This document shows positions 8,953 to 11,184 of a stretch of DNA of 64,000 nt, piece after piece. Below the pieces are notes generated by a model, which saw only the letters and a list, made by a program, of their open reading frames with translations, ran no database searches and was not told where the DNA came from. Source of the DNA: Candidatus Saganbacteria bacterium. Its GTDB lineage: Bacteria > Margulisbacteria > WOR-1 > XYC2-FULL-46-14 > XYC2-FULL-37-10. The DNA is taken from the NCBI GenBank assembly GCA_016223245.1, contig JACRPL010000008.1:1-64000 (forward strand), given 5' to 3'. The translations under genes and the position numbers were made by a program. Position 1 is the first letter of the stretch. Every line of letters starts with the position of its first letter.

Positions 8953-9024
8953 ATGGCAAAAATAAAAGCGATAATCGGACGAGAAGGATTGGACTCGAGA
9001 GGAAACTCTCAGGAAAGAGAATAA
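8953..9024 (+). pseudogene. Duplicated 5' end of enolase, now a 23-codon mini-ORF
   Basis: The first ~52 bases repeat the start of eno at 9910 with three mismatches up to that point, two of them at third codon positions. The frame reads [18 protein letters not shown] then SQERE and a TAA, against [18 protein letters not shown] in the intact gene. It keeps its own ribosome-binding site (GAAAGGG at 8938-8944). The stop lies 2 nt before the ATG of the inserted gene, so the truncated enolase start now works as a translated leader for it. This is best read as the left boundary of an insertion at the 5' end of eno. Confidence 0.85.
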
Positions 9025-9026
9025 GC

Positions 9027-9905
9027 ATGACGGAGAAGTCATTGGCTATTTTTGAAAACTTTAAAATTCGCCGGCATTACGACGAAAAAACCGAAACTTG
9101 GTATTTTTCGGTAATCGATATTATTGCGGCATTAATAGAACAAACCGATTTTAAAAAAGCAAAAAGTTACTGGACAACATTAAAAAATCGCTTAAAACAA
9201 GAAGGCAGTGAGTTGGTCACATTTTGTGACCAACTGAAAATGCAATCCGCTGATGGCAAGTTCTACAAAACCGATGTGGCAAAAGTGGAAACTATTCTTC
9301 GCCTCATACAATCAGTGCCAAGTAAAAAAGCTGAACCAATTAAATTATGGCTGGCAAAGGTGGGATATGAACGATTGCAGGATATGGGCGATCCTGTCCG
9401 TTCACTTGATCGCGCCCGTGAATACTGGCAAAAGCACGGTCGAAGCGAAAAGTGGGTTCAGCAGCGGATGATGGGGCAAGAAATCAGAAATAAATTGACC
9501 GATTATTGGAAAGATAATGAGGTGAAAGAGCAAGATGAATACGCAATATTAACAAATATCATCCATGAAGAATGGAGCAGCTTATCGGTGAAAAAACATA
9601 AGAACTTAAAGGGTCTTAAAGCTCAAAATCTGCGAGATCACATGTCCGATGCTGAATTGATTTTTACAGCTTTAGCGGAGCTTTCCACTCGGCAAATAGC
9701 TGAAACAATGCAAACTAAAGGCTTGGAAGAAAATAAAATTCCGGCTAAAAAGGGCGGTAAAATAGCGAAAAATGCCCGCTTAGAGCTGGAAGCGAAAACA
9801 GGGAAAAACGTAATTACATCTGAAAACTATCTTTCGCCAGTGAAGAAACAAGTGCAGATAAAACAAAAATCGGTCAATAGCGGGGATGAAGGAGGGGTGA
9901 TGTAA
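9027..9905 (+). CDS. DinD/BRO-N-like phage antirepressor family protein inserted in front of eno
   Basis: 292 residues. The N-terminal half ([46 protein letters not shown]) has the layout of BRO-N/antirepressor proteins. The C-terminal part ([26 protein letters not shown], then [29 protein letters not shown] split across ~240-268) matches the DNA-damage-inducible DinD type. Such proteins are DNA-binding or regulatory and common in phages and mobile DNA; the exact role is unknown. It starts 2 nt after the mini-ORF stop and ends 4 nt before the intact eno ATG. Its 3' end carries the ribosome-binding site (GAAGGAGGGG) that now serves eno. No integrase or transposase accompanies it. Confidence 0.75.
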
Positions 9906-9909
9906 AATA

Positions 9910-11184
9910 ATGGCAAAAATAAAAGCGATCATAGGACGAGAAGTATTGGACTCGAGAGGAAATCCCACAGTTGAAGTCGATGTAATATTAAATAACGGGA
10001 TAAAAGGGAGTGCAATAGTACCTTCAGGCGCATCGACCGGAAGCCGCGAAGCACTTGAGCTGCGCGATGGAAACAAATCAAGATATTTAGGCAAAGGGGT
10101 CCTTAAAGCCGTAAAGAACGTTTCGATACTTGCAAAAAAATTGATAGGATTGAATCCAACCAAGCAAGAAAAGATCGATCGCCTCATGATCGAGCTTGAC
10201 GGGACCGAGAACAAAAGCAAATATGGAGCAAATGCTCTTCTTGGGATATCAATGGCTGTTGCCCATGCGGCGGCTAATTCAGAAGGCTTGCCATTATTCA
10301 AATACTTAGGCGGAACAAAAGCAATAACACTTCCAGTGCCTATGATGAATGTGTTGAATGGCGGAGCTCATGCAGGCTGGTCAACAGAGATGCAGGAATA
10401 TATGATAGCGCCTGTTGGAGCCAAGACATTCCGTGAAGCGTTAAGGATCGGGACCGAAGTTTATCATGCACTAAAAGCCGTGGTCAAAGAAAAGGGATAC
10501 CCAACAACTGTCGGCGACGAAGGCGGCTTTGCTCCAAAGACCGGATCGAACGAAGGCAATCTTAAGCTCATTATGGAAGCGATCGAGAAGACCGGATATA
10601 AGCCTGGAGCCGATATTTGCATTTGCATGGACCCGGCTTCATCGGAATTTTTCAAGAACGGAAAGTATGAATTAAAGACAGAGAGGAAAAACTTATCTTC
10701 TGCCGAAATGGTTGACCTTTATGCATCATGGATCGAGAAATATCCCATCGTTTCAATCGAGGACGGATTGGCAGAAGGCGATTGGGAAGGGTGGAAACTA
10801 TTAACCGATAGGCTCGGAAAGAAGATCCAGCTAGTAGGGGATGACTTATTTGTTACAAACCCTAAGATATTAAAAGAAGGCATACAAAAAGGCGTCGCCA
10901 ATTCGATCTTGATCAAAGTAAACCAGATCGGGACATTGACCGAAACGATCGAAGCCATAAATATGGCAAAAAAAGCCGGATATACTGCCGTTACATCGCA
11001 TAGATCGGGTGAAACCGAAGATGCGACTATCGCTGACCTAGCGGTTGCTCTAAACACGGGACAGATTAAGACAGGAGCTCCTGCAAGGACTGATCGCGTT
11101 GCAAAATATAACCAGCTTTTGAGGATCGAAGAAGCTTTGGGCAAGAAAGCCAAGTATTTGGGCATCAAAGCCTACGCGAAATGA
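9910..11184 (+). CDS. eno: Enolase (phosphopyruvate hydratase)
   Basis: 424 residues, standard length. It converts 2-phosphoglycerate to phosphoenolpyruvate in glycolysis in the cytoplasm, with Mg2+. Visible hallmarks are the N-terminal [16 protein letters not shown], the loop [17 protein letters not shown], the catalytic region GDEGGFAP, the metal-ligand segments [11 protein letters not shown] and GDDLFVTN, the LIKVNQIGT lysine and SHRSGETED. Start chosen at 9910, with AAGGAGGGG at 9890-9898 inside the 3' end of the upstream inserted gene. Its first 52 bases also occur at 8953. It converges with yqeY at 11241. Confidence 0.98.

Follow-up and report, generated by a model that had tools for sequence, protein, structure and literature searches.

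Insertion of a DinD/Bro-N-like gene between two copies of the enolase start in a Candidatus Saganbacteria genome, and similar scars around toxin-antitoxin and candidate defence genes

Insertion into chromosomes with long target duplication has reportedly been described for restriction-modification genes by Nobusato et al. in 2000 and by Furuta et al. in 2010. In two published accounts, restriction-modification genes without a linked mobile element are found between long target duplications of variable length, of the order of 100 bp (PMC3874152, PMC3031569). The 2013 review by Mruk and Kobayashi presents this mode of insertion for restriction-modification systems only, and describes the mobility of toxin-antitoxin genes only in terms of carriage by mobile elements (PMC3874152). 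A second precedent is found in E. coli, where incoming linear DNA can be ligated into circles and integrated by a RecA-dependent single crossover, leaving a target duplication of 109-950 bp (PMC3240628). How toxin-antitoxin and single-gene defence systems spread without a mobile element carrier has so far been poorly explained. Within the literature covered here, which was mainly non-subscription and represented the primary papers through reviews, we came across neither such scars around toxin-antitoxin or dinD genes nor the synonymous signature described below; a search for DinD together with enolase returned unrelated medical papers only.

The locus studied here lies in a window of 64,000 nucleotides at the start of a contig of a Candidatus Saganbacteria genome. 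In this window a Bro-N/DinD-like gene, referred to below as dinD, is located immediately upstream of the enolase gene eno, between two copies of the eno start. The features of the region are as follows.

8782..8810, forward strand: sigma-70-like promoter match TTGAAA-17-TATAAT, upstream of the remnant, dinD and eno; a consensus match only
8944..9005, forward strand: first copy of the direct repeat, a remnant of the eno leader and start, with V12G in the otherwise conserved EVLDSRG
8953..9024, forward strand: remnant ORF of 23 codons, stop TAA at 9022-9024, 2 nt before dinD
9006..9026, forward strand: left end of the insert, 21 nt, including AGGAAAGAG, the likely ribosome-binding site of the inserted gene
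9027..9905, forward strand: inserted Bro-N/DinD-like gene, 292 aa, ATG at 9027; PADLOC PDC-S13
9901..9962, forward strand: second copy of the direct repeat, the leader and first codons of intact eno
9910..11184, forward strand: intact enolase gene eno, 424 aa (Pfam)

The original prediction had two copies of the first ~52 bases of eno, one at 8953 and one at 9910, three mismatches apart, and the upstream copy reading as a 23-codon ORF that stops just short of the inserted gene. Both points are confirmed, and the repeat can be extended to 62 nt (92% identical, 5 mismatches, of which 3 lie in coding sequence, 8953-9005 / 9910-9962). It scores 47 as a match, as compared with values no higher than 9 in shuffled controls; further upstream, a gapped alignment of both leaders was no better than shuffles. 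The insert between the repeats measures 895 nt and consists of a single ORF, whose stop codon falls inside the second repeat copy. Terminal inverted repeats, a transposase and a recombinase or integrase gene were all looked for in these 895 nt and none was found. The identity of eno is given by Pfam (Enolase_N 1e-56, Enolase_C 1e-133). The gene was also thought to end with a ribosome-binding site exactly where eno needs one: a GGAGGGG is indeed present, but it ends 12 nt ahead of the ATG, which makes 'exactly' slightly generous, and it may be part of either the insert or a donor eno leader.

Against the PADLOC model PDC-S13 the inserted protein gives a full-length match (387.6 bits, E 8e-117), which spans residues 1-281 of its 292. 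The PDC set comprises candidate single-gene defence systems from a guilt-by-embedding screen, mostly unvalidated (PMC12988326), and we regard the inserted gene as a candidate single-gene phage defence of the PDC-S13 type, with an antiphage role predicted from the sequence; it differs from the family in that here it adjoins eno, outside any defence system. The match to Bro-N (PF02498) reaches 23.7 bits (E 7.7e-05), just under the curated cut-off of 25.6, and the likeness to E. coli DinD consists of a weak match (16 bits) between a profile built from 47 relatives and the C-terminal part, or half, of that protein. No solved structure for the inserted protein was found by sequence search. In the AlphaFold model (mean pLDDT 84.9) the predicted fold appears to resemble that of Deinococcus DdrC (Foldseek E 1.8e-6), although the TM-scores are only 0.3-0.5; DdrC binds DNA and, in vitro, turns linear molecules into circles (PMC5436757). 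Homologues of dinD are spread over many phyla, with 66-87% identity. Carriage by phages or plasmids was considered and rejected, as homologues occur in only 4 of 50,697 phage and 12 of 72,556 plasmid records, with two IMG/VR hits. Another Bro-N gene of the same genome, at C13:26419-26886, is shorter; its frame is open and no such flanks were noted around it.

The case for insertion is made by the relatives. No dinD-like gene stands in front of eno in two genomes of the same family (G001, G002) and two of the same order (G005, G007). The possibility that relatives hold no uninterrupted form of eno therefore does not apply, and the duplicate is absent from these relatives, which rules out the upstream copy as a conserved regulatory leader. 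Homologues of dinD that are 85-87% identical occur at unrelated loci in other Saganbacteria/WOR-1 genomes; one is found at an unrelated locus in G005, and those of G002, G009 and G017 lie downstream of a different gene. Since eno lacks the gene in relatives and the closest relatives of dinD are at other loci, it is dinD that moved and eno that stayed. As had been anticipated, eno was kept or rebuilt whole (9910-11184).

The eno locus is not the only one of its kind in this genome. We have scanned 1.65 Mb, nearly the whole genome, for direct-repeat pairs 250-3200 nt apart. Copy number and inspection served to remove tRNA pairs, dispersed repeats and paralogous coding repeats, which left about 15 pairs, unique, non-paralogous and in two copies, 26-250 nt long, around inserts of 0.3-3 kb, many of them at the ends of housekeeping genes (polA, secD, fhs, queC, ilvD, polX). 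At least 10 of the 15 inserts carry toxin-antitoxin or defence-candidate genes, compared with 2 of 20 random ORFs (Fisher p 0.0009); this p-value is a guide only, as the classes were assigned after seeing the loci and the random sample is small, and toxin-antitoxin genes are abundant in this genome to begin with. In the lines that follow, insert families are by Pfam where tested and host gene names are from sequence, except for eno, which is Pfam-confirmed.

MNT/HEPN insert, at the polA start
pair of AbiEii nucleotidyltransferases, secD start, repeat 105 nt, 98%; opposite orientation
AAA_14/DUF4143 ATPase, at the mdh start; opposite orientation
AbiEii-like nucleotidyltransferase, at the fhs 3' end
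MNT/HEPN insert, in the ilvD 5' region, repeats 201 plus 51 nt
HipA operon (HipBA), at the polX start
ParE-type toxin, before hicBA
HicA, repeat 30 nt
MNT with DUF4160/DUF2442
23S-IVP four-helix protein
unknown 404-aa protein, in mtnA

One further case lies within the window itself (50826-51687), where a VapBC-type insertion at the queC 3' end represents the same kind of event as at eno.

50268..50906, forward strand: queC, intact host gene of the second insertion in the window
50826..50890, forward strand: repeat copy in the intact queC 3' end, 65 nt
50969..51621, forward strand: inserted RHH antitoxin and PIN toxin pair (VapBC type)
51623..51687, forward strand: remnant copy of the queC 3' end, with Cys to Arg in the CGVCDSC motif

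Uninterrupted forms are again available for comparison: tsf adjoins polA without an insert in G005, and purA-queC is without VapBC in G001, G002 and G007. A DinD-specific mechanism is ruled out, because VapBC, MNT/HEPN, AbiEii, HipBA, ParE and HicA genes show the same scars. In G001 an MNT nucleotidyltransferase-like fragment is located between tsf and polA (L241 4334-4579), and the polA gap is the MNT/HEPN site here; the tsf-polA gap is possibly an insertion hot spot. Another MNT/HEPN pair, at window 11696-12399, follows closely on eno and a YqeY-like gene, and had no flanking repeat in the scan. Two dispersed repeat families were also observed: a ~44-nt repeat of type CTCGGGACATCTCCCCCTTGATAAGGGGGAGAAAGAGAGGGGGT, MITE-like or structured, occurs at window 22124-22166 and in about 50 copies genome-wide, also within coding regions (for example at L186), and the palindromic repeat CCTGCCTGCCGGCAGGCAGG occurs at window 8890-8912 and in many places, its family having about 60 copies in the genome.

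Similar scars can be recognized in other genomes. In GTDB contigs, flanking repeats with a score of at least 20 were found at 9 of 80 dinD loci, against 2 of 218 other ORFs from the same loci (Fisher p 5e-5 at score 19). At one of these loci dinD lies by a YjbR-family gene whose 5' part is present twice, in the same layout as at eno (L086); at two others it sits between hsdM and hsdS, and the hsdM 3' end is copied on both sides (L113, L109); elsewhere the flanking repeat is a tRNA 3' end (L137) or the adjacent Bro-N gene (L108). Three further flanked dinD loci were found in Patescibacteria (L294, L296, L301). dinD does not always carry flanking repeats, which were found at none of the 29 other Saganbacteria/Margulisbacteria loci and at ~11% of loci across phyla. 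The MNT/HEPN loci of other genomes provided 5 more flanked cases, among them the murE 3' end (L276) and another host gene end (L269). Among the 69 ORFs of the eno-locus control set, 2 scored for flanking repeats; one of these is a gene for a four-helix bundle (23S-IVP type) that lies upstream of eno in G022, another genome of the class (L013 2965-3324). The original view of the arrangement as one of DinD was too narrow, since it recurs with other gene families.

The divergence between repeat copies bears on their origin. Duplication of resident sequence at insertion predicts a spare copy without selection, accumulating about 3 amino-acid changes per silent change. In the coding repeat pairs of this genome we counted 11 non-synonymous and 38 synonymous codon differences, while a simulation of neutral change for the same pairs gave 37.8 and 11.5, respectively, with no simulated set below 26 non-synonymous differences. 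With the intact copy allowed silent changes only, the synonymous excess has p about 2e-8 (p about 1e-4 without ilvD); pooling the cases from this and other genomes gives 26 non-synonymous and 60 synonymous differences. For the eno pair alone the counts are too small for power (1 non-synonymous, 2 synonymous, p 0.17). As the copies differ mainly at synonymous sites, they appear to have diverged as working genes in different lineages before being joined, and one copy of each repeat probably came from the donor DNA of a relative, a donor known only through the pooled substitution patterns. The nearest relatives compared belong to the same family or order, and in none of them was dinD found to adjoin eno directly, as it would in a donor genome. 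A few amino-acid changes in the spare copies fall in conserved motifs (V12G in eno, CGVCDSC to CGVCDSR in queC, GAGNV to GAVNV in mdh), which suggests later decay of the spare copy.

The reading we lean towards, and hold to be rather probable, is that dinD was integrated together with a donor eno end through a single RecA-type crossover, as were the other cassettes in their turn, and that such cassettes are retained by addiction or defence. A fragment from a related strain would carry the dinD cassette and the adjoining end of the strain's own eno; circularised, or held on one side by homology, it would recombine with the resident eno via the shared end, and a single RecA-type crossover would produce, in this order, the resident leader, a partial eno start, the cassette and a complete eno. 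At no point would the essential gene be broken, an integrase or transposase would be unneeded, and the length of the duplicated scrap would be set by where the donor fragment ended. It follows from the geometry of the eno locus that the insert plus one repeat copy forms a circle homologous to the target. The presence of ComEC and DprA in the genome and the absence of Ku are in keeping with this reading. The same process would have put VapBC, MNT/HEPN, AbiEii, HipBA, ParE and other small genes at other gene ends. Recombination between the repeats could remove the inserts again, and an excess of addictive or protective genes is then expected among the survivors, which is consistent with the enrichment seen.

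A bolder version would make these units enzyme-free mobile cassettes, small addictive or defence genes that travel between related species with a scrap of the neighbouring essential gene as their homology address: the scrap would target insertion and spare the host gene, and addiction would prevent loss between the repeats. In its strongest form DinD/PDC-S13 would promote its own circularisation and insertion, an idea that comes from the likeness of its predicted fold to the DNA-circularising DdrC. We treat this version as speculative, with a small chance of being correct.

The closest rival to the single crossover is a one-sided homologous event with an illegitimate joint, that is, homology-facilitated illegitimate recombination, in which a linear fragment made of dinD and the eno start pairs at one end and joins illegitimately inside the resident eno start. 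This too predicts a donor copy with synonymous divergence, tight junctions and an intact gene; it is known in naturally competent bacteria, and ComEC and DprA are both present in the genome. Its published products, however, are usually deletions of ~1 kb and not duplications (PMC3240628), so that duplications would need to be selected out of many outcomes, and we consider it unlikely. The ComEC competence domain gene is found near the end of the window (63032-63775, PF03772, E 2.7e-52). Ku was not found in five genomes, which rules out Ku-dependent end joining.

A duplication of the target from resident sequence, by a staggered break, fill-in, gene capture or an unknown transposition, followed by decay of the spare copy, would fit the variable duplications of ~100 bp described for restriction-modification systems (PMC3874152, PMC3031569), and some repeat pairs are indeed nearly identical (L165, L218, L234). 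Against it, the spare copies are without the expected excess of amino-acid changes, there is no Ku, and the 895-nt insert has no terminal inverted repeats or recombinase gene; we judge this origin improbable.

It is still harder to maintain that dinD was gained from, and selected for, the capture of eno expression, by standing behind the eno start while providing a new ribosome-binding site for eno. At eno itself the layout is suggestive, as the remnant ORF with its ribosome-binding site stops 2 nt before dinD, GGAGGGG precedes the intact eno, and a promoter-like match lies upstream (8782-8810); to judge from the sequence, remnant, dinD and eno may share a transcript at this locus, and translation of dinD may be coupled to that of the 23-codon remnant. 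However, the secD and mdh insertions face the opposite way, those at 3' ends (queC, fhs) are without a host start, and dinD homologues elsewhere are not behind one. Expression capture is therefore not a general rule, and with sister insertions in either orientation or at 3' ends, the original view of it as the point of the arrangement is unsupported.

An assembly or binning artefact, conceivable in a metagenome-derived genome of 24 contigs, is hardly credible for 62-nt, 92% identical repeats inside a 122-kb contig, with many similar loci in independent genomes and phyla.

Overall, insertion of this kind looks like a general route by which toxin-antitoxin and single-gene defence systems get into chromosomes while the host is left unharmed. 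The spare copy of the host gene would then be a record that a cassette crossed between relatives by homologous recombination, and would show why essential genes survive the event. The combination of a short host-gene-end repeat, silent differences between its copies and a small addictive or defence gene in between is a signature that lends itself to automated searches of any genome collection, and could reveal new defence genes by their scars; such scars may also help to explain candidate genes embedded in other operons, for example between hsdM and hsdS (L113, L109).

Comparison with known systems sets the eno insertion apart from DNA transposons and insertion sequences, as it has neither a transposase gene nor terminal inverted repeats, and from integrative elements of the SXT/prfC type that restore their target, as its only gene is not a recombinase. 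It shares with single-crossover integration (Amarir-Bouhram et al. 2011, PMC3240628) the duplication of part of a homologous gene around the insert; that work concerned E. coli plasmids after conjugation, with duplications of 109-950 bp, while here the event is deduced from natural genomes, with repeats of 26-250 nt. The insertions also resemble insertion with long target duplication, in their direct target repeats (62 nt at eno, 26-250 nt elsewhere), in the uninterrupted state of the targets eno, polA and queC in G001, G002, G005 or G007, and in the lack of a linked transposase or integrase in the 895-nt eno insert. They differ from it in their cargo of dinD/Bro-N and toxin-antitoxin genes, in their hosts, which belong to uncultured phyla, and in that the copies, when pooled, differ mostly synonymously (11:38 vs 38:11 expected, non-synonymous to synonymous), pointing to a donor. 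This comparison suggests that the known mode of insertion with long target duplication extends from restriction-modification systems to other genes, and that it carries the signature of a donor.
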